Shown in pieces: positions 44,116 to 62,861 of a stretch of 64,000 nucleotides of DNA. The stretch comes from Emticicia sp. C21 (GTDB lineage Bacteria > Bacteroidota > Bacteroidia > Cytophagales > Spirosomataceae): NCBI RefSeq assembly GCF_003418935.1, contig NZ_QVMT01000001.1:310001-374000 (forward strand), in the 5' to 3' direction. The first letter of the stretch is position 1. Each line of letters opens with the position of its first letter. The notes under the pieces were generated by a model, which was not told the origin of the DNA, searched no databases, and saw only the letters and a list, made by a program, of their open reading frames with translations. A program made the translations under genes and the position numbers.

Positions 44116-44160
44116 CAAACATACTAATCTAGTGGGGTTGTATAGTAACCCAATTTGGGT
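44116..44160 (-). promoter_or_regulatory. Palindrome plus -7 box, promoter of the receptor remnant (site A)
   Basis: ACCCAATTTGGGT (44148-44160) is a perfect palindrome. On the minus strand, 27 bp after its inner TTG comes TATGTTTG (complement of 44116-44123), a perfect TANNTTTG. The same spacing is seen at sites B and D. The palindrome would be centred about 45 bp upstream of the transcription start, where activators usually bind. Confidence 0.65.
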
Positions 44161-44270
44161 GATTGTGATGAACGGCGAACAATGGATTTGTTAAAATTTG
44201 TTAAAAAATAACTCCACTCCCTAACCCCTCTCTCCACAATTGAGAGGATTAAGGATTAGATTATTCAAAA

Positions 44271-44299
44271 AAAATCCTATCTCAAGCGGATAGGATTTT
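44271..44299 (-). terminator. Terminator of the first receptor gene
   Basis: AAAATCCTATC (44271-44281) and GATAGGATTTT (44289-44299) form an 11-bp stem; on the minus strand TTTTTTGAATAA follows. It is 40 bp past the receptor stop. Confidence 0.8.
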
Positions 44300-44338
44300 A
44301 AAACTAACAAACTGTATGTAAGCCTCAAAATTGAGGGA

Positions 44339-46774
44339 TTATCCGTTGGTCTGAATCCTGCGATTTTCTTCTTCCGATCCTCCGTTTCTTCTGCGTGCAG
44401 GGGCTACTGTTGATTTACCAAAACGATAGTTGAATGCCACCGTTACCACTCTACTATCCAAGCGGCGGCGAAGGGTCATATCCATATTCTGGTATTTCAC
44501 AATCATGTTATTTCTTTGGGTTAAGAATGGGTCGCTAACACTCAATTTCAGCGTGCCTTTGCGTTGCCATAGCTGCCTTTGCACACCTAAAGCTATTTGT
44601 GCCTGCGAAAGTATCTTGAATGTTCCGAACAGAAATGGTGACTGGTAATATCCTGTCAACTCGGCATTCCAGTTCTTACCAATAGTAAATGTATTGGTTG
44701 AGTTAAAAAAGAAAGTCGTGAGTTGCTGCCTGAATTCTCCATCCAGGAATTTGCCCCAATATCGGTTGTTATAATTCTCAAAATACAGGTTACCATTCCA
44801 CCATTTAGTGTATTTCACTGGAATAGAGATATTATATCCGATAGTTTCCAGGTTATTGAGGTTTTGTTGCGACTGCGCTGCTACTTTAGTGACATCGTTC
44901 TGAATCAATACCGTTGAGATAATGTCTCTGGTGCGGCTATGGTAAAAGGTAATGTTGTACTGTTGCTTAAAAGCATATGTCAGCTCTGAATTAAAGGTAA
45001 ATTGTGGCTGTAACTGAGGGTTTCCCTCACGATAGACATAGATGTCTAAAAAGAATTTAAACGGATTTAAGTCCTGATAGTTGGGGCGTTGGATACGCCT
45101 GCCAACATTCAAGCTTAACTCATGGTTTTTGTTAATTTCCTGACGAATAAAAACCGTTGGAAACAACTGGAAATATTTACGGCTAAAAGTTGCATTAGTT
45201 GATAATTGTTTGCCATCTGCAATAGTCTGCTCTCCACGTAGCCCTAATTGAATACCCGTTTTCTGAAACTTGGTATTAAAATTCACATACCCTGCATTGA
45301 TATTCTCGTGATAAATAAAATGATTGGTACGAGTCAAATCCACTACCTCTACCCCATCCTGTACCAGATAATACTGGGCATTGCCATCATTGCTTACGAA
45401 ACTGCTTTTTGCCCCTATTTCAAATTTAGTTTCCTTACCCAATGGATGTATGTAATCCACTTTAAATGTTTTTATATCAATATCCGATGGCAAATCACCT
45501 CTCAAAATATAGGGTGATGGCAGGTTTTGTCCGGGCATATAAGTGGTCTCGGTGGTGGAATTTTGAATTATCTGCTGATTATAGCTTGCATAATCAAAGT
45601 CGGCAGTTAGTTCTTTGCCGGTGCTGTCAAAAGTATGTTTCAGGTTCAGATTCAGGGTATAGTTTCGCCAACGGTCACGGTTCGAGTTATTGGTAACATT
45701 ACTATTGGTAATAGTACCATTTGGATCTCTGAAATCGCTTGGCGTACTGGCTTTTACCAAAATATTATTTAGTATGCCATTTACATTTGCCCCTATGGTA
45801 GTTTTACGGCTTAAGAAATAATCTACTCCTATTTTTAAATTCTGAGAACTGAAATGAGGTAATTGGGTAGGTCTCTGGGTCAAGGTCGAGACACTTCCAT
45901 CTCCTGCAACAAACTTCCGGTTAATAACCGATCTGTTTTCTCCTGCCCTGTTTACCTGAGTAAGATTGCCGAATAAATTCCATTTTTTGTCACGGTAATT
46001 CAAATTTAATCCTGCATTTTGCTTAAAACGTAAACCTTGCCCAACACTCAGATTGACACTGCCATTCATGCCCAGTTTTTTATCCCGTTTCATACGAATA
46101 TTGATAATACCAGCATTGCCTGTGGCATCATACTTTGCAGATGGATTGGTAATGAGTTCTATTTTCTCAATCTGATTAGCAGCCATTCCACGAAGCATAT
46201 TAGCTAAATCTGTAGTTGAGAGGTTAGTAGGTTTGCCATCCATCAATATTAAGACCCCTTGCTTGCCTTTCAGCGAAATATTACCATCGGCGTCTACTGT
46301 GACACCCGGTGCTTTTTCTAATACTTCAATTACGCTATTGCCTGCTGAGGTAATGCTATTCTCTACATTCAGCACAATTTTATCAATCTCACGCTCAATG
46401 AAAGGCTTGGTGGAGCGAACGGTCACTTCGCCTAAGGCCTTGGCGTCAGTCATTAACTCAATTGCAGAAAGTTTGATGTTTTTATTATCAGTACTTAACC
46501 CAAAAGTCGGAGATTTGAACTTCTGATACCCCACTTGTGAAACCTTTACGAAATAACGTCCTTCGGCAATGTTTTCAAAACCAAAATTCCCTAGCTGGTC
46601 TGTAATAGCTGCTTTAACAAGTGTTGAATCTTTTTCGCGGTGAAGTGTAACGTTAGCAAATTCCACTAATTTCTTTGCATCGTCATTTACCTGTCCCTCT
46701 ACCTTGCCAGTTAGAGTCTGGGCGTATATGGGTATAGTAATATTCAGCAAGTAAACAGTTAATAGCTTTTTCAT
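44339..46774 (-). CDS. Outer-membrane beta-barrel receptor, CarboxypepD_reg + OMP_b-brl type
   Basis: 811 aa, signal peptide in residues 1-18 (YAQ end). Residues about 22-105 are a carboxypeptidase-regulatory-like domain (ANVTLHREKDSTLVKAAITDQLGNFGFENIAEGRYFVKV). Residues about 115-230 are a plug domain (GNSVIEVLEKAPGVTVDADGNISLKGKQGVLILMDGKPT and ITNPSAKYDATGNAGIINIRMKRDKK). The rest is a long beta-barrel ending with RVVTVAFNYRFGK. TonB-dependent-like uptake of an unknown substrate is the usual assumption, but a TonB box is not evident. The promoter is site B. It is paralogous to the gene at 50432. Confidence 0.88.
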   Translation of the reverse strand: MKKLLTVYLLNITIPIYAQTLTGKVEGQVNDDAKKLVEFANVTLHREKDSTLVKAAITDQLGNFGFENIAEGRYFVKVSQVGYQKFKSPTFGLSTDNKNIKLSAIELMTDAKALGEVTVRSTKPFIEREIDKIVLNVENSITSAGNSVIEVLEKAPGVTVDADGNISLKGKQGVLILMDGKPTNLSTTDLANMLRGMAANQIEKIELITNPSAKYDATGNAGIINIRMKRDKKLGMNGSVNLSVGQGLRFKQNAGLNLNYRDKKWNLFGNLTQVNRAGENRSVINRKFVAGDGSVSTLTQRPTQLPHFSSQNLKIGVDYFLSRKTTIGANVNGILNNILVKASTPSDFRDPNGTITNSNVTNNSNRDRWRNYTLNLNLKHTFDSTGKELTADFDYASYNQQIIQNSTTETTYMPGQNLPSPYILRGDLPSDIDIKTFKVDYIHPLGKETKFEIGAKSSFVSNDGNAQYYLVQDGVEVVDLTRTNHFIYHENINAGYVNFNTKFQKTGIQLGLRGEQTIADGKQLSTNATFSRKYFQLFPTVFIRQEINKNHELSLNVGRRIQRPNYQDLNPFKFFLDIYVYREGNPQLQPQFTFNSELTYAFKQQYNITFYHSRTRDIISTVLIQNDVTKVAAQSQQNLNNLETIGYNISIPVKYTKWWNGNLYFENYNNRYWGKFLDGEFRQQLTTFFFNSTNTFTIGKNWNAELTGYYQSPFLFGTFKILSQAQIALGVQRQLWQRKGTLKLSVSDPFLTQRNNMIVKYQNMDMTLRRRLDSRVVTVAFNYRFGKSTVAPARRRNGGSEEENRRIQTNG

Positions 46775-46801
46775 AATAATGCTTTTTCATATTCGGTAAA
46801 G

Positions 46802-46846
46802 CAAAAATAGAGCGCTATTGCCTGATTGTTTTACCCCATTTTGGGG
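46802..46846 (-). promoter_or_regulatory. Palindrome plus -7 box, promoter of the first receptor (site B)
   Basis: CCCCATTTTGGGG (46834-46846) is the palindrome (4 G/C pairs each side of ATTTT). On the minus strand, 27 bp after its inner ATG comes TATTTTTG (complement of 46802-46809). The receptor ATG is at 46774. Confidence 0.65.
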
Positions 46847-46864
46847 GATTTAGAAAAAAACACC

Positions 46865-46975
46865 CGCCCCTAGCCCCTAAAGGGGTACAAAAACAAAAAA
46901 CTCCATTCAAATTTTAATTTGAATGGAGTTTTAGTTATAGTAGAACCTGTCGTTCCCCTTTAGGGGTTAGGGGCG
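46865..46975. repeat. Nested inverted repeat ending inside the S41 coding region
   Basis: CGCCCCTAGCCCCTAAAGGGG (46865-46885) is the reverse complement of 46955-46975 (CCCCTTTAGGGGTTAGGGGCG) with one mismatch. The right arm supplies the final Arg-Pro-stop codons of the S41 protease gene. The interior contains the terminator hairpin at 46897-46932. Short CCCCTAAAGGGG-type repeats are common in Cytophagales intergenic DNA. Confidence 0.65.
46897..46932 (-). terminator. Terminator of the S41 protease gene
   Basis: AAAACTCCATTCAAATT (46897-46913) and AATTTGAATGGAGTTTT (46916-46932) form a near-perfect 17-bp stem with a 2-base centre. It lies 35 bp after the protease stop. Confidence 0.8.
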
Positions 46976-49900
46976 TTTTATCTCCTTCAGTAGTTCATCA
47001 ACCGCTGCCTTCAATTGGTCGTCGGTACCTTTGGCTAGCCAGTCAGGTTGATTTTCTACAATGATATCTGGTATGGCAGCTCCTAATTCCTGATTTTTAT
47101 CTGTTGCCTTTGTAAACCAGCCACGACCTGGCAAACGAACAAATGAACCGTCCATTAATGATTTACCACCCGTTGAAATCACCGAACCATTGGTTGGTAC
47201 ACCTACCAATTTACCAACGCCTAAAGTTTTATAGGCATGAGAGAAAATTTCGGCATTTGAATAGCTACCCTCATTACATAAGGCAATAGAAGGTTTCGTC
47301 CAGGCGGCATATACCAGACGTTCACCAATCGGGTAATAACTTTTGAATTTCAGTTTATCTTTTTCTAAATCTTCACTTGCCCCTCTTGGAATGGTATAAG
47401 CATGTTGTTTGTAATTCAGAATCGTCATTAAATAATCGGTAGTTGAACCGCCACCGTTATAACGCACATCGATTACCAGCCCCTCTTTGCCAAAACCTGC
47501 AGCAGTAAATTCTCTTTCTACCACCTCAAAGCTTTGGAAGTCCATACTTCTGATATGGATATAGCCCAAACGACCATTAGAATATTTATCAACTAACTTT
47601 TTACGGTTTTCTACCCATTCTTCGTATAAATTATTGGTAATGCTCGCTGTCAGACGAATCACCACTTCTCTTGATTTTCCATCTGCCCCACGTACATTTA
47701 ATAACACTCTTTCGTTTACTAATCCGTTCAATAAATCATAGAAATTATCATTGTCACTTACGGCCTGCCCGTTTACCGCCGTAATCACGTCACCCTCGTT
47801 CAACTTGCTTTTTTCTTTGTCGGCAGGTGTGCCAGGAACTACGTGTGCAACCTTTACGCCTCCGCTTACAGGTGATAATTCTGTCCCTATAAGTCCGGTA
47901 GCTTCTTTTTGCGTATCAATACGGTCAGTAACTGTCATACCCATGTGGCTGGAGTTTAGCTCACCTAGCAAGAGGTTAAACATATCTCTGAAATCATTGC
48001 TGGTGCTGGCATTGATAGCTCGCTCTTTGTATTTATCGTGCAGTTTTGTCCAGTCGTTGCCATGAAACTTAGGATCGTAGAAACCATCGCGAATCGTGCG
48101 CCATGCTTCCTCAAATACCTGTGTACGCTCGGCATTATAATCAATCTTCATCTTAGCCGTATATGGTAGTGTTTCAGTAGCGTTTGATTTCATATCAATT
48201 CTTCCTAAAGCCCCCATACGTGTATAATACAGGTATTTACCTTCTCTATCCATCGTTACATTGCTGGGGTTAGCACCACCTTTGGTGATTTCTTTCAAAT
48301 CTTTGCCGTCCCATTTAACACTATACAAATCTCTACCCTTAGCTACACTTGTAGAAGTTGTATAATAGAAAGTTTCACCGTCTTTCGAAATCACTAACTC
48401 ACTTTCTTCGCCCGGGAAACTGGTTACCTGCACAGTACGCTCATGAATTTTATCGAAGTCTATTCTGACTGGTTTGGGACCTTTTTTATCGGCTCCTTTT
48501 GCCGGAGTAGCAGGCTCTGGCGCAGGTGCATCTCTCTCCTGCCAATCTTGTGTCTCTTTTTCCCAATCTTCTTTTTTCAACCACACAAACCAAACATCGT
48601 TGCTGCGGCCTGCACTACGCCCTGAAATAAAGCCTAGTTTAGAACCATCAGCACTCCAGAATGGGCGACCATCGGTACGCGGATGCATCGTGACGTTGAC
48701 AGGCTTTGTTGAATTATCTGCCGCCTGAATAAAAATCTCCTGATTAAAGTATAAATCGCTCATAGCATAAGCCAGCCATTTACTATCAGGACTCCAGGCA
48801 ATGCCACCCGGACTATCCCAACTATCACTTAGTACTTTCTCGTTCGATAATTTTCCATCAGGATTAATATCAGCTACAACAAATGTTCCTCTACCACGCA
48901 CATAGGCGATTTTCTTATTATCAGGTGATACTACCAGATTGGTTTCATCTCCTGCAGTTTTGGTAACTTGTACTAAGCCATGTTTCATCGATTTGAACAC
49001 ATTGCGTTGGGTTGTATCAATGGAACGAACCATATAAATATCGAAATTACCATTGACTCTATCACTCGTAAACAATAAAGTTGAGTCATTCAACCATGTT
49101 GGCTCTATGTCTCTGAAAGCATGCTCTGAAACATTAATGCTTCTTGCTTTTTCTTTATCAGCTTCTTTCAGAAATATCTCCCCTCTTATCGAAAAAGCTA
49201 GCAGTTTTCCATTAGGTGAAACGGCATAATCGCTTGCACCAGTGGTCAAAGTTTTTTGCTCGGTAGCATCCAGGCGGTCATCAGCACTAATAACAACATT
49301 TAATTTTTGAGACGAACCTCTTTCAGTTTTCATTATATAAAGGTTCATATCTTTCTCAAAAACAATAGAATTCCCATCAGCTGATATACTGAATGCACGG
49401 ATTGACTCATCTTTATAATTAGTCAGTTTTTCAGGCGTGTTGCTTGCTTTTCCGTTTGCGTCCAGTTTCAGACGATAGATATTGTAAGCCCCTGATTCAC
49501 TGCTCAGGAAATACAAGGTATTATTGCTGCCCCATTGAGGAAAAACATCGTTGGTTTCGAAACCAGGCAATTGTTGGTAGGTTTTGTTTTTGGTATCATA
49601 AATCCAGATGTCACGGTCAGAACTTCCTTTATATGCCTGACGGGCTACAGGGTTAATATCACCACGCTCAAAGGCCAAGAAACGACCATCAGGTGAAAGA
49701 ACCGGATAGAAACCCACCGCATCTAAAATTCTTGATTCTGTACCTCCTTTTGGGCTGATGGCATATACTTCATTTGGGCGTTCGATTTGTCTGAACTCAC
49801 GATTGGTCGAAAATAAGATTTTATCGGCTTGAGTCCAGCTTGAAATATTATCTGCCCCTGAATGGAAAGTGAGACGCTTAGGCATGCTACCCTCTGCCGA

Positions 49901-50179
49901 CATCACAAATATGTCGTTGTTACCAAATCTGGCACCAGAAAAAGCGATTTGTTTACCATCGGGGCTAAAAACAGGATTTGATTCATAGGCGTCATGAATT
50001 GTTAAACGGGTAGCTTTGCCGCCTGAACCCGGGACTGTCCAGATGTCTCCCTGAAATGAAAAAGCCACTAAAGAACCATCTTTATTAATGGCGGGCTGAC
50101 GAAGCAACAGAGTATTTTGTGCTTGCAGGCAAAAAACAGTTAAAAAGGTAATTGTTGAGGTTAAAAGCGATTTTTTCAT
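46967..50179 (-). CDS. Tricorn-type S41 family peptidase
   Basis: 1070 aa, signal peptide in residues 1-20 (CLQAQ). Residues about 25-560 contain PD40/WD40-like blades (SPDGKQIAFSG, SADGNSIVFEK, SPDGRFLAFER, SPDSKWLAYAMSD), the tricorn beta-propellers. A PDZ domain is near residues 765-830 (SGGVKVAHVVPGTPADKEKSKLNEGDVITAVNG). The S41 catalytic domain holds LVIDVRYNGGGSTTDYL and NEGSYSNAEIFSHAY, in which Ser of YSNAE is the likely nucleophile. It degrades peptides, probably in the periplasm. It lies between two paralogous receptor genes on the same strand, so a shared peptide-uptake role is possible (inference). Confidence 0.9.
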   Translation of the reverse strand: MKKSLLTSTITFLTVFCLQAQNTLLLRQPAINKDGSLVAFSFQGDIWTVPGSGGKATRLTIHDAYESNPVFSPDGKQIAFSGARFGNNDIFVMSAEGSMPKRLTFHSGADNISSWTQADKILFSTNREFRQIERPNEVYAISPKGGTESRILDAVGFYPVLSPDGRFLAFERGDINPVARQAYKGSSDRDIWIYDTKNKTYQQLPGFETNDVFPQWGSNNTLYFLSSESGAYNIYRLKLDANGKASNTPEKLTNYKDESIRAFSISADGNSIVFEKDMNLYIMKTERGSSQKLNVVISADDRLDATEQKTLTTGASDYAVSPNGKLLAFSIRGEIFLKEADKEKARSINVSEHAFRDIEPTWLNDSTLLFTSDRVNGNFDIYMVRSIDTTQRNVFKSMKHGLVQVTKTAGDETNLVVSPDNKKIAYVRGRGTFVVADINPDGKLSNEKVLSDSWDSPGGIAWSPDSKWLAYAMSDLYFNQEIFIQAADNSTKPVNVTMHPRTDGRPFWSADGSKLGFISGRSAGRSNDVWFVWLKKEDWEKETQDWQERDAPAPEPATPAKGADKKGPKPVRIDFDKIHERTVQVTSFPGEESELVISKDGETFYYTTSTSVAKGRDLYSVKWDGKDLKEITKGGANPSNVTMDREGKYLYYTRMGALGRIDMKSNATETLPYTAKMKIDYNAERTQVFEEAWRTIRDGFYDPKFHGNDWTKLHDKYKERAINASTSNDFRDMFNLLLGELNSSHMGMTVTDRIDTQKEATGLIGTELSPVSGGVKVAHVVPGTPADKEKSKLNEGDVITAVNGQAVSDNDNFYDLLNGLVNERVLLNVRGADGKSREVVIRLTASITNNLYEEWVENRKKLVDKYSNGRLGYIHIRSMDFQSFEVVEREFTAAGFGKEGLVIDVRYNGGGSTTDYLMTILNYKQHAYTIPRGASEDLEKDKLKFKSYYPIGERLVYAAWTKPSIALCNEGSYSNAEIFSHAYKTLGVGKLVGVPTNGSVISTGGKSLMDGSFVRLPGRGWFTKATDKNQELGAAIPDIIVENQPDWLAKGTDDQLKAAVDELLKEIKRP

Positions 50180-50351
50180 TACTACTAATAGCTTGTTGAT
50201 TAACCTTTAAATTTACAATAAAATCGCGTGGAGCACTACAAAATCAGATGATTTAGGTATAAGTTGAGATAAAATAACGAAGATGTAGGAATTATTATCT
50301 CTTTGATAGTGCTTTTAATTGGTTTAAAAAGATATAGAATAATAACAAAAA

Positions 50352-50382
50352 GGAATTGTCCCAGTAAAACTGAGGCAATTCC
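50352..50382 (-). terminator. Terminator of the second receptor gene
   Basis: GGAATTG (50352-50358) pairs with CAATTCC (50376-50382), with inner CC/GG and AGT/ACT pairs around AAA; on the minus strand TTTTTGTTATT follows. It lies 50 bp past the receptor stop. Confidence 0.7.
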
Positions 50383-50431
50383 AAAGAATTAAAAGTTTAT
50401 TTAGATACGATTTGAAAAATCATGATACCTA

Positions 50432-52852
50432 TCAACCTCCTTTAATACGATTTAATTCGTCTTCTGAGCCACTTCTTCGGTTGCGGGCACCTTTAATTTC
50501 TTTACTACCGAAACGGTAGGTAAAGTTAACTCTCAACTGTTGAGATTCCCATTTGAAACGAAGATTGGTATAAACACCGGCATATTCAGAATGATACCCT
50601 CCTCTACCTGTGTTTAGTACATCAGTAAAGCTGACTTTTAAAGTAGCGTTATCTTTCCAGAATTTCTTTTGCACACCTGCATCCATTGTGCCCATCGCTC
50701 TGTTATAATCTATGCGACGATAAGGTGAATTATACCAGCCAGAAAGTTCGATTGTCCAGTTATTTTTGAGTTTAAAGGTGCTTTGCGCATTGGCATTAGC
50801 CGCAATAGTACTATTATTGACTTTAAGTCCATTCTTTAGGTCACCACGGAATATATTGTTATAGCCACTTACATTCACATATATATTCCACCATTTAGTA
50901 ATATCTGTTGCCAGGCTTACATCAAGGCTGAATCCTTGGGTATAATCTAAGTTTTGAGCAATGAAGTAGGTACGACTCTCATCGTAAGGTAGTCTCAATC
51001 CTACTACCGGGAATCTTGTGCGCCAATAGCCTAAAGACGTAGTGAGTTTACCTTTATAGACGTGCGTTAGTTTAAAATTATTGGCATATTCAGGGCGTAA
51101 GAAAGGGTTACCTTTTGAATATACCAACTCATCGACGCGGTATTCAAATGGATTTAGATTCTGGTAGCTTGGGCGGTTAATACGACGGCTATAGTTCAGA
51201 TTCAGGTTATGGTGCTCCGATAACTTATAAGAAATAGCACCACTCGGGAAAAGATTAATATAGCTTGTATCTACCTTATCCAGATCATTCTGCTTGTAAC
51301 TGGTGAGTTTACCTAACGATTGCGTACGCTCGGCTCTCAATCCTAGTTGCAAATCCCATTTTTTACTTAATGATTTGTTATAATTAATGTAGGCTGCATA
51401 CACACGTTCAGTATATACAAAGTTATTGCTTCTTTCAAAGTCTCTGACCTCGGTATCATTCAACACATTAAAGAAATCGAAAGTATTATCAGATTTCACA
51501 TCTGACAGCTTAATTCCATAGCCTAGTTTTCCTTTCTTGAAAGGTTGTTCATAATCTATCTTGAATGATTTAATGCTAATATCAATCGGTGTCTTGGTTA
51601 CGAAATTTCTGCTGAAAGAGGGTCTGTCAGAATTCGGAAACTCGTAGGTGTTGGGCTGATAACTTACCCCTCTTGAAGTAAAAATACCATAATCGGCATC
51701 TATATTCAGTTCGCGGCCTGTAGTATCGGTATAGCGATAATTCAGGTTGAAGTTCAGATTTTTGTTTTTCTCAGGATTTGAAGTCCGTGAGTTAAGAATA
51801 GCTGAATCCGGCTGTGCACTGTATCGGTCACCAATCAATGTCTGACTTTCACCACCGCCATTGTGGTCACTTACTCTGCCGTTGGCACTAAAACCCAAAG
51901 TATTTTTTGAATTGATAAAATAATCTATACCCACCTTGGCATTGTGAGAAGTATCGCGATAGATACCCCTCCAGGTTTTGTTGTAGGCAATATTATTCAA
52001 TATCTGGTCGTCAAGTGTGCGGTTATGCCATGCTCCCTGGTTATAGCTATAATTACCAAATACATTGATTTTCTTATCACGATGATTCAAATTGATAGAA
52101 CCATTCACTTTAGGCGTAATACCAAAGTTAGAGCCTAACGCTACATTGCCATTAGTACCAATTTTTTTATTCTTTTTCAAACGGATATTCACAATGCCTA
52201 AATCTCCCGCAGCATCATATTTGGCTGAGGGGTTAGTAATAACTTCAATGGCTTCAATATCCGCTGAATTCATACTTTTTAAAACAGATGCAAGGTCTTT
52301 TCCGCTCATTGGCGACGGGCGGCCATCAATAAAGATTCTTACTCCGGCCTTGCCTTTCACCAGAATATTTTCGTCCTTATCTACTTGCACCCCAGGCGAT
52401 TTTTGCAGCAATTCTAATGCATTTAATCCGGTGGCATTCACGCTCCCCTCTACATTGAATACTATTTTGTCGTTTTGTACTTCTATGAGAGGTTTAGTGG
52501 CTACTACTTTCACTTCCCCTAATTGCTTGGTATCAGATGATACTGTAAATGCCTGAAACTCGACATCTTTATCTACCACCTCAAAAACAGGTGATTTGAA
52601 AGCACTGTAACTTACGGCAGTTACTTTAATAAAATACTTTCCGACAAGAATGTTATTGATTTTAAAACTGCCATTTTCATCGGCTATGTCAGCTTTTACA
52701 AGCGAAGAATCTTTGGTTGCGTGTACGGCTATGGTGGCAAACGAAACTACCTCATTCTGCTGATTTTTTACCTGACCTTTAACTGAGAAAGTTTGAGCAT
52801 ACAGCAACTGTGATATGCTCGTAAAGAGTAATACGAGTAATAAATTTTTCAT
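50432..52852 (-). CDS. Outer-membrane beta-barrel receptor, second paralogue
   Basis: 806 aa, signal peptide in residues 1-19 (LLYAQ). The domain order repeats that of the 44339 gene: FATIAVHATKDSSLVKADIADENGSFKINNILVGKYFIKV, then plug elements LLQKSPGVQVDKDENILVKGKAGVRIFIDGRPSPM and ITNPSAKYDAAGDLGIVNIRLKK, then a long barrel ending QQLRVNFTYRFGSK. Similarity to the other paralogue is greatest in the N-terminal and plug parts. A long leader (over 90 nt) precedes the ATG, unlike the short leader of the first receptor. Confidence 0.88.
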   Translation of the reverse strand: MKNLLLVLLFTSISQLLYAQTFSVKGQVKNQQNEVVSFATIAVHATKDSSLVKADIADENGSFKINNILVGKYFIKVTAVSYSAFKSPVFEVVDKDVEFQAFTVSSDTKQLGEVKVVATKPLIEVQNDKIVFNVEGSVNATGLNALELLQKSPGVQVDKDENILVKGKAGVRIFIDGRPSPMSGKDLASVLKSMNSADIEAIEVITNPSAKYDAAGDLGIVNIRLKKNKKIGTNGNVALGSNFGITPKVNGSINLNHRDKKINVFGNYSYNQGAWHNRTLDDQILNNIAYNKTWRGIYRDTSHNAKVGIDYFINSKNTLGFSANGRVSDHNGGGESQTLIGDRYSAQPDSAILNSRTSNPEKNKNLNFNLNYRYTDTTGRELNIDADYGIFTSRGVSYQPNTYEFPNSDRPSFSRNFVTKTPIDISIKSFKIDYEQPFKKGKLGYGIKLSDVKSDNTFDFFNVLNDTEVRDFERSNNFVYTERVYAAYINYNKSLSKKWDLQLGLRAERTQSLGKLTSYKQNDLDKVDTSYINLFPSGAISYKLSEHHNLNLNYSRRINRPSYQNLNPFEYRVDELVYSKGNPFLRPEYANNFKLTHVYKGKLTTSLGYWRTRFPVVGLRLPYDESRTYFIAQNLDYTQGFSLDVSLATDITKWWNIYVNVSGYNNIFRGDLKNGLKVNNSTIAANANAQSTFKLKNNWTIELSGWYNSPYRRIDYNRAMGTMDAGVQKKFWKDNATLKVSFTDVLNTGRGGYHSEYAGVYTNLRFKWESQQLRVNFTYRFGSKEIKGARNRRSGSEDELNRIKGG

Positions 52853-53003: not shown

Positions 53004-53018
53004 TTTAACACTTTTTAA

Positions 53019-54551: not shown

Positions 54552-54569
54552 CTTAATTATTCAATACTG

Positions 54570-55337: not shown

Positions 55338-55612
55338 AGATTTTGTCATAATAGTTCTGGAGGTTAAATAGTTATTTCATTTGAAATGGTAAGAATACAA
55401 AATAAAAAAAAGATAATTCAATAAATGTGTCTAATTTTAACGTAACTTTCGTCAAAACAAGACGAAATAGGATAATTATAGCATTTGCTGGAAATCATTC
55501 ACAATTAATCGAAGATATTCAATAAAGTTTTACTTGCTGCCTGTTATTTTTGCTTTACAGGTAAGAAAATGAGTTTAACGATTACTAAAACCTAACTATT
55601 TAACGAAACTGC

Positions 55613-56050
55613 ATGACAAAGCTTAACTATCATATTATTCTTGCTGACGATGATGAAGACGACCGGACTTTTTTTAAAGAGGCACTGCTTGAAACAGAAA
55701 GCTCGGTGACAGTTAATACTGCTAGTGACGGGATAGAGCTAATGAATCTGCTCTCGCATACGTTACCCGATGCTATTTTCCTTGATTTAAACATGCCTTT
55801 CAAAAACGGACAAGAATGCTTGTCTGAAATAAAAAACAATAGGCGATATAAGAATATTCCTGTGGTTATTTATTCTACCAGTTCGAATGTCGACCAGATA
55901 AATTCCACCTTTAAAGCAGGGGCTAATCTATATATTTCTAAGCCTGACTCATACCTAAAACTAAAAATTATCCTAAAGAAAGTTTTTACTCTCAAATGCG
56001 AAGAGTATAAACCACAACCTGATAAAGAAAAATTTGTTTTAAAGTATTAA
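55613..56050 (+). CDS. Single-domain response regulator (Rcp1-like)
   Basis: 145 aa, a lone receiver domain: ILADDDEDDRTFFKEALLE (acidic pocket), FLDLNMPFKNGQECLSEI (phosphoacceptor Asp of DLNMP), VVIYSTSSN and ISKPDSYLKLK (conserved Lys). There is no output domain, so it acts by protein contact, as in Rcp1-type regulators. The next gene, 11 bp downstream, encodes its probable partner kinase. A -7-like TATTTTTG is at 55545-55552. Confidence 0.9.
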   Translation: MTKLNYHIILADDDEDDRTFFKEALLETESSVTVNTASDGIELMNLLSHTLPDAIFLDLNMPFKNGQECLSEIKNNRRYKNIPVVIYSTSSNVDQINSTFKAGANLYISKPDSYLKLKIILKKVFTLKCEEYKPQPDKEKFVLKY

Positions 56051-56061
56051 CATTTTGAAGC

Positions 56062-58473
56062 ATGTCTCTTTCCCAAGACAAGGCAGAAGTGAGCCTTTCT
56101 ATACCCGAGGTTGCTACGCCTAACCTATTACATTTTAAACATATTCCTGCCTACGCACAATATCTTCTTACCAATAAACTGGAAGATTTTACGCGAACAT
56201 CCCTGGCTATCTCCCGCGAGGTAAAAGTACCCTTATTAAGATTCTTTGAGGGCCTGCCGGAAGACGAACTGATAAAATTGTCTATTCAGGGTACACAAGA
56301 TTATCTAGGCTATTTTGCCAATAATTCGATAGAAGAGTTTATTGACTTATCAATAAAAAGATGGGAAGAAAACCAGCTTCCTCTGGTACAGGACGATGAG
56401 GTTGTAGCCCAGGATATTTCTACGGTTAGCTTTACGCGAAGAAAAGCCTTACGCCATTTCTTACCAGATTATACCAATGATTTAAGACTCTACAATCATA
56501 TTTTAGATGAGATAGACCTCTTTATAATGACGGTTGAAGAAAAGTCATACAATACGTTATTCAGTATCCAGCAACGGAAAATTAATGAACATCTCTATTT
56601 TATCGAAAAGGTAAACAATACCTTACCGGGTGTTGTGTATGTTTATGATTTACTGGAGCAGAAAGAGATTTATTCTACTAACAAAAGAGAAGAGTTGATT
56701 GGCTATTCAAGCGAAGAAATCCAGAGCTTTGGTAGCAATGTATTTGCAGCGTTGCTCCATCCTGAAGATTTAGAGAACAGACTCGAACATCTCGGTAATT
56801 TTTCTACAGCCAACGATGGGGAGATCCGTAGTATGGAATATCGGCTTAAACACAAAAAAGGTGGATACTATTGGCAACGGGTTTATGAAACAATCTTTAA
56901 AAGAAACGAAGAAGGCATACCGTCACAGATTATTGGTATGTCACTCGACATCAATAAGGAAAAAGATGCTTCACAGAAACTACAATTACGCGAACAACAG
57001 CTAAGTGAAGCGCAAGAAATAGCAGGATTGGGTAGTTTTGAATGGGATTTACAATCCCATAATTCTCTTTCTTCAGATCAATTACTAAAAATATTTGAAT
57101 TAGAAGAAAGCAAAGACTACCTCACATTTTTACAATATGTGCACCCTGCCGATCAGAACCGACTCACTGCGGCAATTAATGAAGCTATAACTGGCGACGG
57201 TAAATATGAATGTGAATACCGCTACCAAAAAGGGAAAGAAAAAATAATATGGTCACGTGGGGTAGTTAGTTTTCAGGATGGGAAGCCATACAAAATGCGA
57301 GGCACGGTGATGGATGTTACCGAGCGGAACCAGATGCTTAATCAACTGGAACATACTATTGAGTTACACAAACAGGCACAAGCGCTGACACATATTGGTA
57401 ACTGGAGCTGGGATATACCCAACAATAAAATTGATTGGAGTGATGAAATGTACCGTATTTATGGTCTTGAGCCCCAATCGGAAGAAATACATTTTGAGCG
57501 CTTCATTTCATTGGTTCATCCGGAAGATCGGGAACGTAGATTAGCAGAGATTCATAAGGCATTAGAAACATATGTAGCAGAAGATTATGTAATCCGAATT
57601 GTTTGGGACAATGGCACTACCAGAGTATTACAAGGAAAGGGTGAAATAATATTAGATGAATTTAATAAACCTTGTAAGCTAACTGGTACTTGTCAGGATG
57701 TTACTGAGCAGTATCATATTAATCAGCAGTTAGAGCAGAAAAATATTGAATTACAGAGAAGTAATGAGGAACTGACCTCATTTAATTATATCGCTAGCCA
57801 TGATTTGCAAGAGCCATTAAGGAAAATCAAGCTATTCAGCAATCGTATTTTTGAGAAAGATTTTGAGAACCTCTCTCCTTCTGCTAAAGAGTTTTTGCCA
57901 CGTATTATTACTTCGGCTACGCAGATGCAGAAACTTATCAATGATTTACTGGCTTTCTCTCGTGCTACTTCTGCCGATAAAGTCTTTGAAAAAACAGATT
58001 TGAACCTATTATTGGATGAGGTTAAGAACACTTTGAAAGAAAGCATCGAAGAAAAGCAGGTGTCTATTACGCATGCTAAGCTTCCCGAATTGAATCTTAT
58101 TTCTTTCCAGTTTCAGCAATTGCTAGAAAACATTGTTGGCAATGCTATTAAATACAGTAAACCAGATATTGCCGTGGAAATAAAGATTAGTTCGAAAACA
58201 GTAGCGGGCAAAAACTATGTAAATCAAGGGGGTGTGGCAGGAAAAAATTATAATATGCTAAGCATTAGTGATAATGGCATAGGTTTCGACCAGCAATACG
58301 CTCAGAAAATATTTGAGCTTTTCCAACGCTTGCATAATAAAAATGAATACTCAGGCACAGGAATCGGCCTGGCTATCTGTAAGAAGATTATTCAGAACCA
58401 TAATGGGTTTATTATTGCTGCAGGCGAGCCGGGTAAGGGGGCTACTTTTCAGATTTTTACGCCTTTGAATTAA
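56062..58473 (+). CDS. Multi-PAS sensor histidine kinase
   Basis: 803 aa, no membrane helices seen, so probably cytoplasmic. A helical N-terminal domain (about residues 1-170, with LYNHILDEIDLFIMTVEEKSYNTLFSI) is followed by three PAS domains near residues 185-300, 310-425 and 430-550 (each with PAC-like endings such as IIGMSLDINKEKDASQKLQ and LTGTCQDVTEQYHI), then HisKA with His580 in YIASHDLQEPLRKIKLF, and HATPase_c with NIVGNAIKYSKP, LSISDNGIGFD and GTGIGLAICKKII. It pairs with the receiver just upstream. The stimulus is unknown, and light or redox sensing cannot be told from sequence. Confidence 0.92.
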   Translation: MSLSQDKAEVSLSIPEVATPNLLHFKHIPAYAQYLLTNKLEDFTRTSLAISREVKVPLLRFFEGLPEDELIKLSIQGTQDYLGYFANNSIEEFIDLSIKRWEENQLPLVQDDEVVAQDISTVSFTRRKALRHFLPDYTNDLRLYNHILDEIDLFIMTVEEKSYNTLFSIQQRKINEHLYFIEKVNNTLPGVVYVYDLLEQKEIYSTNKREELIGYSSEEIQSFGSNVFAALLHPEDLENRLEHLGNFSTANDGEIRSMEYRLKHKKGGYYWQRVYETIFKRNEEGIPSQIIGMSLDINKEKDASQKLQLREQQLSEAQEIAGLGSFEWDLQSHNSLSSDQLLKIFELEESKDYLTFLQYVHPADQNRLTAAINEAITGDGKYECEYRYQKGKEKIIWSRGVVSFQDGKPYKMRGTVMDVTERNQMLNQLEHTIELHKQAQALTHIGNWSWDIPNNKIDWSDEMYRIYGLEPQSEEIHFERFISLVHPEDRERRLAEIHKALETYVAEDYVIRIVWDNGTTRVLQGKGEIILDEFNKPCKLTGTCQDVTEQYHINQQLEQKNIELQRSNEELTSFNYIASHDLQEPLRKIKLFSNRIFEKDFENLSPSAKEFLPRIITSATQMQKLINDLLAFSRATSADKVFEKTDLNLLLDEVKNTLKESIEEKQVSITHAKLPELNLISFQFQQLLENIVGNAIKYSKPDIAVEIKISSKTVAGKNYVNQGGVAGKNYNMLSISDNGIGFDQQYAQKIFELFQRLHNKNEYSGTGIGLAICKKIIQNHNGFIIAAGEPGKGATFQIFTPLN

Positions 58474-58505
58474 ACACTAAAGGTAAGATACCATAAAAAA
58501 CTTGA

Positions 58506-58545
58506 AGCCAGGGACTTGGCGTCGCCGCAATGCCCTGGCTCTACT
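58506..58545 (+). terminator. Terminator of the PAS kinase gene
   Basis: AGCCAGGG (58506-58513) and CCCTGGCT (58533-58540) form an 8-bp stem with a 19-nt loop that can add inner pairing (GGCG/CGCC type), followed by CTACTTTTTA. Confidence 0.65.
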
Positions 58546-58589
58546 TTTTAATTTATCATACAATTTATGGAGCAATAAGGCACTACTTA

Positions 58590-59036
58590 CTATTTAACTA
58601 AAGGCCCCTCCCAAAGTACCTGATCCATCTTCCAGCCATCGCCCTCTCTTGATAACAGCAAATAATCTGTTCCCCACCAGGCGGTGATTTTAGCCGCCGC
58701 GGTATGGTTAGAAATATCTAATACTTTTACTATTTTAGGAGCATCTGGTTTGGGGAATCTTTTCTTTGCACTTACATTGGCTGCATAGTCTATGGCTTGT
58801 TTATAGGTCATATAACCATCTTCTGCAAACTTGCCTGTTTGTTTATTTTTAAAGTAGCCGAATTTCGTCAAGGTAGGTCTTAACGAGGCTTTGATTTTGA
58901 GGGTATCTCCTTGATAAAACCCATCAATATAATTCATACAGGCTTGCGTAACAAGCTCAGAATCCTGACTGGTTTGTGCCTGTGCACTACTGACACTAAT
59001 AATGAATAGTGTCAGTAGTGTAATTTTCATTTTCAT
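58590..59036 (-). CDS. Secreted NTF2/lumazine-binding-like protein
   Basis: 148 aa, signal peptide in residues 1-20 (SSAQAQ). The NTF2-like fold of the Lumazine_bd_2 type: ACMNYIDGFYQGDTLKIKASLRPTLTKFGYFKN, then MTYKQAIDYAANV and the strands VKVLDISNHTAAAKITAWWGTDYLLLSREGDGWKMDQVLWEG. No catalytic residues are assigned. It lies 23 bp downstream of the LuxR-type regulator on the same strand, so may be co-transcribed with it. Confidence 0.75.
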   Translation of the reverse strand: MKMKITLLTLFIISVSSAQAQTSQDSELVTQACMNYIDGFYQGDTLKIKASLRPTLTKFGYFKNKQTGKFAEDGYMTYKQAIDYAANVSAKKRFPKPDAPKIVKVLDISNHTAAAKITAWWGTDYLLLSREGDGWKMDQVLWEGPLVK

Positions 59037-59059
59037 AATTTTATATGGTTTTGTAAAGC

Positions 59060-59698
59060 TTAAATTAGTTTCTCTTTCATGGCTTTCTCAATAGCCTCTG
59101 CTTTCGAATGTACTTCCAGTTTCCAGTAAATATTCTTGATATGGGTTCTTACGGTTTCTTTATCTATAAATAAACCCTCAGCTATATTACTATAGCTTTT
59201 GCCTCTGGATAGCAATTCCAGTACCTCTGTTTCTCTGGATGATAGCGGTGAATTATGGTTTTTCTGAAAAGAAGCTACTACCAATCGGGCAATGTTGGTG
59301 CTCATCGGTGCTCCACCGCCCATAATCTCTCTGATAGCTTCTATCAGTCTTTGCGAGGGCATATTTTTTGTGAGATAACCACCTGCTCCGGCACATAGGG
59401 CTTTAAAAACCAAATCGTCGTTTTCATAAACCGTTACTACAATAATCTGCGCATGTGGGTATATCTTCTTTGTACGTTCTATGCCTTCTATGCCATTCAT
59501 ACCCGGCAATTCAATATCCATTAATACCACATTGGGTTTGTCGGTCTGCACGTTTCTCAGAAAATCTTCGCAGTTATTATAGGCACTTACTACTTTAAAT
59601 CCTTGATTTTCGTTTAAAAGCATGACAAATCCTTCCCGAATAATATTATCATCTTCTACCAGGCAGATTTTGATAAGGCTTGTATTTTGGTAGCTCAT
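59060..59698 (-). CDS. LuxR-type response regulator (NarL/FixJ class)
   Basis: 212 aa. Receiver: ICLVEDDNIIREGFVMLLNE, phosphoacceptor Asp in NVVLMDIELPGMNGIEG, VVTVYENDDLVFKALCAGAGGYLTKNM. DNA-binding LuxR HTH: SPLSSRETEVLELLSRGKSYSNIAEGLFIDKETVRTHIKNIYWKLEVHSKAEAI. The start is 4 bp after the stop of the upstream propeller kinase gene, so they are coupled in one operon and form a two-component pair. It is a candidate protein for binding the palindromes at sites A-D (inference). Confidence 0.93.
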   Translation of the reverse strand: MSYQNTSLIKICLVEDDNIIREGFVMLLNENQGFKVVSAYNNCEDFLRNVQTDKPNVVLMDIELPGMNGIEGIERTKKIYPHAQIIVVTVYENDDLVFKALCAGAGGYLTKNMPSQRLIEAIREIMGGGAPMSTNIARLVVASFQKNHNSPLSSRETEVLELLSRGKSYSNIAEGLFIDKETVRTHIKNIYWKLEVHSKAEAIEKAMKEKLI

Positions 59699-59702: not shown

Positions 59703-62700
59703 TTATTTGTTGATGACCAGCTTCACAGTTGTTCCTTCGTTATTTTTTGAAATTATTTCTACTTCTGCTCCAATTTTCTCGGCACGGCTTCTGATGTTTC
59801 CCAGACCATTGCCATTATTAGGCTTATTTGCCTGAATACCTATTCCATTGTCCTGCCAGCAAATTGTTAGTTTTCTGTTTTCCTGTTTAAAATTCAGCTT
59901 CACTTCTGTAGCATTGGCATGTTTCAGGGTATTCATAATGGCTTCTTTAAACAGCATAACCAGATGTCGGCTGGCACCCATAGGTAGTTTAATGGCTTCG
60001 AAATCTTCTGAAATACCCTCGCATATAAAGCGTATATCCCGTTTATCTAATATCTCATCGCAAAAATCCTTGATTCTGATAGCAATTTCAAACAAATTAT
60101 CGTGTTCGGGGTTAATAGCCCATATAAAATCTTTAGTTCCCTGATACAATCGTCCGGCATTATCGCCGATTTTCGAAAGTAAAACCAAAGCCTCTTCACT
60201 TTCTGATTTTTTTAGTTTATTCTTTATCAGTTCGGTCAATAATGAGATACGAGTCAATGAATTACCAAATTCATCGTGCATATCCTGTGCGGCAATCTTT
60301 CTCACCCTTTCGTTTTCCTCTGATTTTACTCGCTCAATCTCCAAAATACGATTAACTCTGACACGATAGAACGTCATTACCACACTGCCTAAAATCACAA
60401 AAGATAGCAGATAAAACCACCATTTTTGCCAGAAAGGAGGCGCTATTGAAATCGGTATAGTCAGAATATCTTTCTCATTCCAGAAACCTTGATTGTTAGC
60501 ACTTTTTATTTTTAATACATAATCTCCGGCTCTTAAATTCGTAAAGTTGATGTAGCGACGAGTACCATAATAAATCCAGTCTTTATCAAAATTCTCTAAT
60601 TTATAGGCTATCTGATTCTTTTCAGGGTTTGTAAAATCAAGTGAAGCAAAGCGGAAAGCAAAGAAGTTTTCGTTATAATTCAGCTTTATCTTCCCATCGC
60701 GCATCAGTAAACTATCCAGATTCTGCTCTTTTTCAAACTTCATGAATGAAGTAATCACTGTTTTGGGTAAATGCCGGTTGCTTGTCATTTGCAAGGGATG
60801 AAAACTTACAAAAACCCCTAGCCCACCAAAGAAAATCTCCCCCGATTTGGTCTGAAAATAAGCACCTGAATTAAACTCACGATTGGATAGCCCATCATCA
60901 GATGAATAATTCTGAAAAGTTTTTTTTGTAGGATCAAAACAAGAAATCCCGTTGTTGGTACTCATCCAGATTCTACCTTTGGCATCAGCTAATGTTGAAT
61001 ATACAAAGCTATTAGGCAAGCCATCTTTTTCGGTATAATGAATAAAACTCTCTTTGCCATTTTCTACTACCAGTTTGCTTAATCCTTTAGGACTTCCTAC
61101 CCATATCTGATTGTTTTTATCGTATAATATAGAGAGTATTAAGTCACTGATCAGGCTTTTAGGCTGGCTCGGATTGTTGGAATAAGTCTTAAAAGTTTCG
61201 GTTGCCGGATTGAACTTCACTAATCCATTATACGTACCAATCCACAGGTTGCCTTTACTGTCTTCCTGCAAAGCTGCTACTGAAAGCATCACACCATCCG
61301 GAGTCTGGTCATACCTTTTAAAAGTATTGCCTTTAATATTTAGTAAATACCCACCTGTGCCTATCCATATTGAATGATTCCTATCTTCAAGAAAATGGAT
61401 AACTGTTGGTTCGCGGCCTTTTATTTTTGGAATCGGGAAATTGTAAAACTTATCGGCTGCACGGTTATACTTAAATACACCCTCGTTGCTTCCGACCCAG
61501 AGGTTTTTACCCGAATCTTCAAAAATGACCTGATGAGAATTTAATCGGTTATTGGTTGTGCTAAAAAGATACTTTTTATAGTCTGTAGTACGAGAGTTTA
61601 TCCTGAAAAGCCCCTCATAGGTACCTACCCAAATATCGCCATAGCTGTCTTTACATATGCCAAAAACCGAAGTAGCCGCTATCGAATTTTCTCTGGCCAG
61701 AATCTTATCCCACTGTCTGAAACTATTCTTGGAATGACTGAATAAATGCACCCCTGCTTCGCGGGTACCTATCCAAACAATATCTTCATTGGCCTCCTTG
61801 CCCTCATAAATGGAAAAAATGGCGCTACTTTTTAAACCTTTTTTACTAAGAGCATCTTCTTCAATATGTTCAATCAGTTCAATGGCATTGCCTTTTACCC
61901 GATATCTAAACACACCCCTTGCCATAGTACCCACCCATACTGTATTAAACCTATCGACCATAATAGCCGATATGAATACATCAGAATGGATTAGCTGGTC
62001 TGAAAAATCCTGTAATTCCGAGTTATTGAGGTTTAGTCTGAACAACCTTTCCTGCGCCGCTACCCAAAGGTTATTTTGTTCATCGCAGAAAATCCTTTGT
62101 ATCGGAAAATTCAGCTTTTTGTAAAAATCCTGTGAGGCATTTCTGGCATGTATAAACTCAACCTGTTGTTGCTCAGGTTGTTTATCAGGGTTCCTGATAG
62201 AGACTTTGCTTAAACCAATCCTTGTGGTAAGCCAAATTCCTCCTTTTTTATCTTTCACTACATAACCAACACCATAGCTACCTAAACTTTTTCGATTGGT
62301 AGAGTCATGCTCGTAGTGTATAGCTTTGTATGATTTTCCTTTAGGTACCAAACGCCAAAGCCCATCATAAGTACTTACCCAAAGTGTTTTTTGTTGGTCT
62401 TCTACAATACCTGTAATGACATAGCTGTAGTCGGGTTTATTCTTGCCAAACAAATCGGTATGTCGTTCAAAATCCTTTGAGATTTTGTTAAAGCTGTTCA
62501 GCCCGTGCTTTGTACCTATCCAGATTTTTTGTCCCGAATCTTCATATAAAAAAGTCACATCATCGCTTGATAAGGTGTTTTTTTCAAAAGGATTATTATA
62601 ATGATGCTTCATCTGAGAGCCGTCGTAGCGGTTTAGCCCATTCTGTGTACCAAACCACATATAACCCTCTTTATCCTGAAGAATCGTACGAACTTCACTC

Positions 62701-62798
62701 TGACTTAACCCCTCTTTCAGACCAATCTGGTCTAAACTTGGCTCAGCCATCACTTTAAAACCCAATAAAAAGAAAATAGTAAACAGTCTCGATAACAT
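59703..62798 (-). CDS. Propeller-type sensor histidine kinase (Reg_prop, Y_Y_Y, HisKA_3)
   Basis: 1031 aa from ATG 62798; a GTG at 62804 would add two residues. Signal peptide in residues 1-17. Residues about 25-670 carry some fourteen Reg_prop blades (DKEGYMWFGTQNGLNRYDG and similar), then Y_Y_Y near 690-755, a membrane helix at WWFYLLSFVILGSVVMTFY, and a dimerisation/His domain with QDMHDEFGNSLTRISLLTELIKNKL (His of MHDEFGN), ending with HATPase_c (DNGIGIQANKPNNGNGLGNIRSRAEKIGA). It senses something periplasmic and passes phosphate to the adjacent LuxR regulator. Polysaccharide-sensing kinases of Bacteroidota have the same sensor layout. The promoter is site C. Confidence 0.92.
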   Translation of the reverse strand: MLSRLFTIFFLLGFKVMAEPSLDQIGLKEGLSQSEVRTILQDKEGYMWFGTQNGLNRYDGSQMKHHYNNPFEKNTLSSDDVTFLYEDSGQKIWIGTKHGLNSFNKISKDFERHTDLFGKNKPDYSYVITGIVEDQQKTLWVSTYDGLWRLVPKGKSYKAIHYEHDSTNRKSLGSYGVGYVVKDKKGGIWLTTRIGLSKVSIRNPDKQPEQQQVEFIHARNASQDFYKKLNFPIQRIFCDEQNNLWVAAQERLFRLNLNNSELQDFSDQLIHSDVFISAIMVDRFNTVWVGTMARGVFRYRVKGNAIELIEHIEEDALSKKGLKSSAIFSIYEGKEANEDIVWIGTREAGVHLFSHSKNSFRQWDKILARENSIAATSVFGICKDSYGDIWVGTYEGLFRINSRTTDYKKYLFSTTNNRLNSHQVIFEDSGKNLWVGSNEGVFKYNRAADKFYNFPIPKIKGREPTVIHFLEDRNHSIWIGTGGYLLNIKGNTFKRYDQTPDGVMLSVAALQEDSKGNLWIGTYNGLVKFNPATETFKTYSNNPSQPKSLISDLILSILYDKNNQIWVGSPKGLSKLVVENGKESFIHYTEKDGLPNSFVYSTLADAKGRIWMSTNNGISCFDPTKKTFQNYSSDDGLSNREFNSGAYFQTKSGEIFFGGLGVFVSFHPLQMTSNRHLPKTVITSFMKFEKEQNLDSLLMRDGKIKLNYNENFFAFRFASLDFTNPEKNQIAYKLENFDKDWIYYGTRRYINFTNLRAGDYVLKIKSANNQGFWNEKDILTIPISIAPPFWQKWWFYLLSFVILGSVVMTFYRVRVNRILEIERVKSEENERVRKIAAQDMHDEFGNSLTRISLLTELIKNKLKKSESEEALVLLSKIGDNAGRLYQGTKDFIWAINPEHDNLFEIAIRIKDFCDEILDKRDIRFICEGISEDFEAIKLPMGASRHLVMLFKEAIMNTLKHANATEVKLNFKQENRKLTICWQDNGIGIQANKPNNGNGLGNIRSRAEKIGAEVEIISKNNEGTTVKLVINK

Positions 62799-62815
62799 AC
62801 ACACTAATTGAACTG

Positions 62816-62861
62816 CTAATGTACGAATATAATACCTATCTGAATCTCACCCAATTTGGGG
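62816..62861 (-). promoter_or_regulatory. Palindrome plus -7-like box, promoter of the propeller kinase operon (site C)
   Basis: ACCCAATTTGGGG (62849-62861) is the palindrome. On the minus strand, 28 bp after its TTG comes TACATTAG (complement of 62816-62823), one mismatch from TANNTTTG. The kinase start is 62798, so the leader is short. The spacing fits sites A, B and D (27 bp). Confidence 0.5.

Follow-up and report, generated by a model that had tools for sequence, protein, structure and literature searches.

A conserved palindromic operator of a propeller kinase/LuxR-type two-component locus in Emticicia sp. C21, and its probable receptor and peptidase targets

The DNA stretch analysed in this work (hereinafter, the window) is 64,000 nucleotides long and corresponds to positions 310001-374000 of contig C1 in the genome of Emticicia sp. 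C21 (6.64 Mb, 33 contigs). On its minus strand it harbors a putative two-component system, i.e., a sensor kinase carrying beta-propellers and a LuxR-type response regulator, together with four palindromic sites (A to D), each lying upstream of a -7 promoter box. The locus is oriented leftward: the propeller kinase gene is followed by the regulator gene and by that of a lumazine-binding-like protein, and two outer-membrane receptors of the PF14905 family are located further left. The features are listed below in window coordinates; the gap is the distance between the GGG of the palindrome core and the first T of the -7 box.

62845-62865, minus strand: site C operator, ATCCCCCCAAATTGGGTGAGA; conserved in L091, L092 and the kinase promoters of other genera
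62816-62823, minus strand: site C -7 box, TACATTAG; gap 26 bp
59703-62804, minus strand: sensor kinase with Reg_prop beta-propellers, Y_Y_Y, HisKA_3 and HATPase_c (domain search)
59060-59698, minus strand: NarL/LuxR-type response regulator (Response_reg and GerE), putative operator binder (domain search, alignments)
58590-59036, minus strand: lumazine-binding-like protein (PF12893), 23 bp past the regulator gene (domain search)
52988-53008, minus strand: site D operator, TTAAACGCAAATTGGGTGATT, right half strong and left half degenerate (matrix; conserved in L189, L174)
52960-52967, minus strand: site D -7 box, TATCTTTG; gap 25 bp
50432-52852, minus strand: second outer-membrane receptor (PF14905), predicted target of site D (domain search)
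46830-46850, minus strand: site B operator, AATCCCCCAAAATGGGGTAAA (matrix; conserved in L178, L207)
46802-46809, minus strand: site B -7 box, TATTTTTG; gap 25 bp
44339-46774, minus strand: outer-membrane receptor (PF14905 OMP_b-brl_3, Plug, CarboxypepD_reg), predicted target of site B (domain search)
44144-44164, minus strand: site A operator, AATCACCCAAATTGGGTTACT, centred at about -43 (matrix; conserved in E. agri, L178, and BO119, L207)
44116-44123, minus strand: site A -7 box, TATGTTTG; gap 25 bp
43696-44091, minus strand: small open reading frame (ORF) downstream of site A, 131 amino acids from ATG, kept in three species

The regulator matches PF00072 with 89.9 bits and PF00196 with 62.6 bits, both above the cut-off, which identifies it as a NarL/FixJ response regulator. 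The kinase carries HisKA_3 (27.6 bits, cut-off 24) and HATPase_c (33.7 bits, cut-off 26.4) and its gene adjoins that of the regulator, as expected of a partner kinase. The lumazine-binding-like gene possibly belongs to the same operon as the regulator gene. According to the sensor kinase, the closest named relatives are Emticicia agri (L091, 90% identity) and Emticicia sp. BO119 (L092, 88%), which match the two congeners holding the kinase; the orthologs of the site-B receptor are 92% and 91% identical to it.

The four sites were found on the minus strand at the positions where they had originally been predicted. Each of them is a palindrome of about 21 bp with the consensus AATC[AC]CCCAnnnTGGG[GT]GATT, the shorter palindrome of the original prediction being its core. 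At site D the core, CGCAAATTGGG, has one mismatch and the full match is limited to the right half; the -7 box of site C differs at one position from TAnnTTTG, and that of site A reads TATTTTTG in both E. agri and BO119. The constancy of the spacing to the -7 box, which was the central point of the prediction, holds; the values then given (27/27/28 bp) are 2-3 bp too large, since 24 (A), 24 (B) and 25 bp (C) separate the inner edge of the 13-bp palindrome from the first T of the box, and 25 (A, B, D) and 26 bp (C) are counted from the GGG of the 11-bp core. A matrix was constructed on 29 promoters outside Emticicia, with six clades weighted equally and two rows of g32 in reverse reading (g23, g27 and g32 are the genus labels used in this analysis). 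Over the 127,962 positions scored on both strands of the window, sites B, C, A and D are the top four, with 28.1, 21.7, 21.4 and 18.1 bits, respectively, when the better strand is taken, and with 20.0, 17.8, 18.2 and 18.1 bits on the promoter strand. Outside these four palindromes, no position scores above 13.4 bits.

The orthologous promoters keep the palindrome, both at A-D in three Emticicia species and at the kinase promoter in six other genera, so that the loss of conservation that had been indicated as a possible refutation is not observed. E. agri and BO119 harbor all of A-D at the same spacing; at site C the sequence upstream of the palindrome has diverged in Emticicia, and the palindrome, the spacer length and the box have been kept. 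Outside the genus, kinase orthologs sharing 41-49% identity are present in Runella, Larkinella, Siphonobacter, Arsenicibacter and others. In the first four of these genera, the palindrome was recognized in all the 21 kinase promoters viewed (with one half degenerate in Siphonobacter and Arsenicibacter), and an exact TAnnTTTG lies 25 or 26 bp after GGG in 18 of them. The two genera left outside all training, g23 (L086) and g27 (L065, L068), also carry the operator, with TAnnTTTG at 26 bp; in the set of loci that includes them, the exact box occurs in eight out of ten, the two without it being from Siphonobacter. A further model, R3, also picked up the operator of genome G048 (22.8 bits). Overall, the operator is found at the promoter of the kinase/LuxR operon in every examined genus (seven) with a near kinase ortholog. 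In g32, it stands beside a kinase/LuxR pair whose regulator is 51-53% identical and whose kinase has no propeller domain match; there, it reads into a divergent gene pair, which in L271 codes for a 271-amino acid protein and a SASA-esterase/Por_Secre_tail protein. The promoter alignment (A1) contains 15 rows from the 29 promoters; the 14 left out (L094, L096, L099, L101, L104, L107, L108, L109, L134, L139, L148, L272, L273 and L278) are partly near-duplicates and partly sequences with no findable box.

A different arrangement was observed in eight Larkinella loci (L097-L102, L107 and L139, at about 9760-9840), in which the palindrome is located between two outward -7 boxes, 26 bp away on each side (25 in L102). 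The leftward box is followed, after about 70-80 nucleotides, by a terminator-like hairpin recognized by eye, with no clear gene in between; for this reason, the leftward promoter might produce a small RNA.

Class II activators are generally defined by a binding site centred at about -41 to -45 and by a narrow spacing to the core promoter. Among 47 operators, an exact TAnnTTTG occurs within 82 bp in 29, at 25 bp (14 cases), 26 bp (14) or 27 bp (1) after GGG and at no other distance; many of the 47 are orthologs of one another and the later ones were retrieved with models that include the box, so that they are neither independent nor fully unbiased. Hence, the full operators are not at random distances from the -7 boxes, a possibility raised by the original prediction; half sites alone occur at all distances. 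Passages of PMC9723704 place the sigma-A -7 box of Flavobacterium psychrophilum at -12 to -5, and on this basis the operators are centred at -43/-44, close to the -45 originally proposed and within the class II range, the box position being borrowed from that species.

An operator in this position (about -53 to -33) covers the -33 region, and the overlap might suggest that the regulator binds and represses, blocking the polymerase. A blocking repressor tolerates spacing shifts, whereas the spacing is confined to 25-27 bp in all the 29 cases with an exact box. In addition, TTG is missing from the -33 position of promoters A-D; upstream of the box this trinucleotide occurs only within the operator core, and not at all in B, which is what activator-dependent promoters would be expected to show. 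On account of the narrow spacing and of the missing TTG, we consider repression unlikely.

As for the protein that may bind the operator, the original prediction indicated the LuxR protein encoded at 59060 as the activator of the receptors and of its own operon. It remains the best candidate, given that the operator is present at its own operon and that a segment of its putative DNA-binding helix tracks the operator; binding and activation themselves are inferred. The protein shows 97-99% identity among the three Emticicia species and about 73-75% in the comparison across genera that have the propeller kinase, for which the corresponding value is 41-49%. The segment KET[IV]R[TS]HIKNIY, which we take by homology to be the recognition-helix region, is common to 15 aligned operator-linked regulators (g32 and g27 included); two further LuxR-type regulators, taken from the retrieved loci, differ in this segment. 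Furthermore, model R1, whose training set contains no Emticicia, was run over 11 Emticicia genomes, and its 14 matches with E <= 0.05, which represent 13 palindromes, all belong to the three kinase-bearing genomes; the best match in the eight kinase-free genomes scores 16.2 bits.

The same data bear on the idea that another, unlinked regulator binds the operator and that the kinase/LuxR operon is just one of its targets. Many regulons include regulator genes, and the binding of this regulator is itself deduced. Against the idea stand the presence of the operator at the kinase/LuxR operon in seven genera and beside the kinase/LuxR pair in g32, the helix segment that tracks the operator, and the confinement of the strong R1 matches to the kinase-bearing congeners; thus, we assign it a low probability.

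The four sites should not be regarded as four independent observations: the start regions of A and B are homologous (85% identity over 60 nucleotides), and therefore these two derive from a single duplication. This caveat is accepted for the A/B pair. As an explanation for the whole set, promoter duplication is quite improbable, because it concerns A and B alone, and a matrix or model derived from other genera recognizes C, D and the unlinked sites as well. Lastly, CCCCTAAAGGGG-type inverted repeats occur near site B (46865-46975) and similar ones among the matches of genome G151, but an origin of the palindromes from such dispersed intergenic repeats is hardly conceivable and was ruled out by the footprints, since the 6.64-Mb genome holds two copies of the exact core and the flanks diverge around a conserved operator, spacer length and -7 box.

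The original scope of the regulon, limited to the receptors and the kinase operon, appears correct in part, in that more sites exist elsewhere in the genome, many of them at peptidase genes. The unlinked sites are the following (contig numbers refer to Emticicia sp. C21); those of Emticicia were retrieved with R1 and R3, and where two or three species are given they occupy orthologous positions:

Contig C4: TldD/TldE pair; three Emticicia species, gap 26 bp, box TATAGAGT/TATCGAGT
Contig C8: DUF4953/5117/5118 Met-zincin; three species, gap 25 bp, box GAAATTTG
Contig C6: dipeptidyl peptidase IV (DPP IV); three species, gap 25/26 bp, box TAA[AC]TTAG
Emticicia: second TldD/TldE pair; three species, gap 25 bp, box TACTTTTA
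Emticicia: subtilase; three species, gap 26 bp, box TATTTCG
Emticicia: M1 peptidase; seen in two species, box uncertain
Emticicia: DUF2911/TPR protein; two species, gap 25 bp, box TATTTTTG
BO119 only: DUF2911 paralog (L358)
BO119 only: subtilase/aminopeptidase-P pair (L360), no box at the right distance
Two Runella species: DPP IV; gap 27 bp, box TATCTTTG
Runella: M1 peptidase; gap 25 bp, box TATGTTTG
Two Runella species: TonB-dependent receptors of about 1,100 amino acids; half site 25 bp from GAACTTTG/GAAATTTG
Larkinella: TldD/TldE; gap 25 bp, weak box CATCTTAG
g27: TldD/TldE; no clear box

In the Emticicia sp. C21 genome, R3 assigns at least 26 bits to seven sites, all belonging to its training set, and 15.2 bits to the next match, opposite-strand readings aside. 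R1, for which these sites lie outside the training set, gives 21.0 bits to TldD/TldE, 16.3 to the Met-zincin and 15.5 to DPP IV, and 14.9 to a match at C1:501423. The E. agri copy of the DPP IV site scores 22.4 bits, though it lies outside the training set. In eight genomes from five other genera, the top match of each is located at the kinase/regulator locus, and members of the TldD/TldE, DPP IV and M1 families recur at operators in other genera. Peptidases account for six of the ten unlinked site groups of Emticicia that were inspected and for none of the 16 control genes (one-sided Fisher test, 0.0009), a value that is indicative only, because the groups were chosen by hand and the control is unmatched for secretion. 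The control consisted of 28 half-site matches (18 inside ORFs), for 16 of which the downstream gene was tested (eight after ORF-internal matches, with some genes truncated by the locus end); the second TldD/TldE pair was found later and lies outside the count. Most of the target peptidases have export-signal-like starts, which would be consistent with their export.

Some matches were excluded from the regulon: L356/L357 (LytTR gene), where the palindrome geometry differs; L361 (ROK) and L393/L394 (adjoining atpD in g32); L395 (S41 protease and FKBP), with no -7 box at the right distance; L399, L402, L403, L404, L407 and L408, with no peptidase or no box; and the match at C1:636863, which is inside an ORF (L011). 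In two species (L356, 5995-6050; L357, 7755-7810) the LytTR gene, close to a further gene for a LuxR-type regulator, is preceded by a palindrome of another type (CCCCATAATTGGGGAT / CCCCAAAATTGGGGAT), which may be the site of that neighboring regulator itself. It was also observed that the Met-zincin operator (L312, L314, L315) is located between the protease gene and a cluster with an extracytoplasmic function (ECF) sigma factor and another PF14905 receptor.

Several points weigh against an operator-defined regulon of this extent. The short motifs give no signal on their own: the core with one mismatch is as frequent genome-wide (30 forward and 29 reverse matches) as its control (31 and 30), and half sites before a TAnnTTTG box, at all distances, number 72 vs. 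62 in the control. Three of the 21 kinase promoters, all from Siphonobacter (L104, L109 and L148), have no TAnnTTTG at the right place, and the 400 bp preceding 54 distant relatives of the kinase (Flavobacterium, Bacteroidales and others) yielded no operator, the best score being 13.8 bits. Several of the additional sites have imperfect -7 boxes (TATAGAGT, GAAATTTG, TAACTTAG, TATTTCG and TACTTTTA, that of M1 being uncertain), and some matches do not concern peptidases at all (two DUF2911 groups, LytTR, ROK, the atpD neighbor in g32 and the TonB receptors of Runella). The searches themselves have limits: the whole-genome searches scored 150 first-look candidates in each genome, many of the sites scored by R3 had already been part of its training, the lower matches were chosen for inspection by hand, with several at about 13-17 bits outside the sample, and the Emticicia genomes were split by kinase presence alone.

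Two of these points deserve a comment. The distant set comprises 54 of the 57 loci outside the near orthologs (L138, L159 and L165 had too little upstream sequence), and the scan starts at the match, so that the promoter may lie farther away where the match misses the first residues of the kinase; the lack of operators upstream of these relatives indicates that the system is not phylum-wide. Concerning the short motifs, the exact core CCCAAWTTGGG occurs at two places in the genome, sites A and C (reversed-pattern control: one per strand), and in the window the core with two mismatches gives 16 matches vs. 17.3 expected. Because there is no excess over the controls, a regulon can be neither established nor dismissed by counting short motifs; what counts as evidence is the longer conserved operator, the short consensus alone providing none. 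In the scan of whole and related genomes originally recommended, the simple pattern showed no excess, and the family-wide scan, many of whose listed matches are chance-like with controls of similar order per genome, brought the sites of g32 and Larkinella to light.

Returning to the window, the gene downstream of site A had been described as a receptor remnant, and it cannot be recognized as such: it has no Pfam match and its ORF is kept in three species. Its promoter and initial codons are similar to those of the receptor at site B. A DNA search of the 11 genomes found its core only in the three kinase-bearing Emticicia. The ORF shows a low three-way identity of 51%, yet a 52-nucleotide block (43820-43871) is identical in all three species; the longest unchanged runs in the kinase, receptor and regulator genes are 23, 32 and 54 nucleotides, respectively. 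The fold at site A has z = -2.5 for a 201-nucleotide stretch, with no pair changed on both sides in the three sequences, and Rfam gives no match in the window at gathering scores. It is possible that the block is an RNA or DNA element. Past the ORF, a conserved promoter-like stretch (TTTGGATTATAT ... TTACTTTG) followed by a conserved terminator-like hairpin (43192-43640) could possibly correspond to a separate short minus-strand transcript.

A second -7-like box, TATATTTG (53037-53044), is present upstream of site D between two TACGAAA-TTCGTA palindromes (53075-53090 and 53019-53036), in an arrangement that is similar in E. agri and BO119. In our judgement these palindromes resemble BlaI/MecI-type operators, and for this reason the site-D receptor may have a second, repressible promoter. 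Between the two PF14905 receptors sits a tricorn-like S41 protease (46967-50179), separated from the site-D receptor by a terminator-like hairpin seen by eye; it was dropped as a regulon member, since the matrix found no operator upstream of it.

Taken together, the sequence data make it probable that A-D are operators of one two-component system acting by class II activation on its own operon, on receptors and on peptidases. The propeller sensor kinase (59703-62804) would sense a ligand, most plausibly an extracellular protein or peptide product; since the targets are peptidases, the signal might be external peptides or a nitrogen/carbon need. The kinase would then phosphorylate the regulator (59060-59698), a dimer of which would occupy the 21-bp palindrome at -43/-44, over the usual -33 region, and contact the RNA polymerase at the TAnnTTTG-type -7 box. 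Site C would thus mediate positive autoregulation, sites B and D would control the two receptors and site A the small conserved ORF or an RNA; the unlinked targets would be the two TldD/TldE pairs, the Met-zincin, DPP IV, the subtilase and M1.

With less confidence, though we lean towards it, the system, kept across at least seven genera of the family, may be a master activator for the scavenging of proteins and peptides, embracing the receptors, at least five unrelated peptidase families and the small ORF or RNA of site A. The propeller sensor domain is usually associated with polysaccharides and, if this were true, it would serve proteolysis here, which would hint at what it reads; orphan peptidases (TldD/TldE, Met-zincin DUF4953, DPP IV) and PF14905 receptors would be joined in one programme. 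To our knowledge, polysaccharide loci aside, the DNA site has been defined for few regulators of environmental Bacteroidota; in this case, the sequence alone gives an operator, its position in the promoter, a likely regulator and a target list partly recurring across genera, and the narrow spacing of 25-27 bp makes these TAnnTTTG promoters a clear-cut model for class II activation.

Systems of this kind are already known. No paper on this operator or regulon was found in the open-licence literature searched, including passages of PMC9723704 and PMC8895600. The receiver and GerE helix-turn-helix paired with a HisKA_3 kinase are shared with the NarL/FixJ (LuxR-type) regulators, and the closest solved sequences are VraR, DesR, NarL and DevR; these differ from the present system in its propeller sensor, and the operator CCCAnnnTGGG with its target set was not found for them in the literature searched. 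NarL/FixJ regulators typically bind palindromes as dimers. The locus does not correspond to a SusCD-type polysaccharide locus: among ten proteins scanned (43696-59698) there is no SusD family member, one contains a 3-keto-disaccharide hydrolase domain, and the receptors belong to PF14905. According to the title of Kadowaki 2016, the type IX secretion system is under two-component/ECF sigma control; a Bacteroidota two-component system for secretion-related genes is common to both cases, with an ECF sigma factor there and a LuxR-type regulator with its own operator here. The hybrid two-component systems (HTCS) of Bacteroidota consist of sensor, kinase, receiver and AraC-type helix-turn-helix in one polypeptide. 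The Reg_prop propellers with the Y_Y_Y sensor and the local control of outer-membrane receptors resemble them, but here the kinase and the regulator are separate proteins, the DNA-binding domain is LuxR-type rather than AraC-type, and the putative targets reach unlinked peptidase genes. Finally, the operator centred at -43/-44 and its near-fixed spacing to the core promoter recall the bacterial class II activators, from which this putative activator system differs in its Bacteroidota-type promoter with a TAnnTTTG -7 box.

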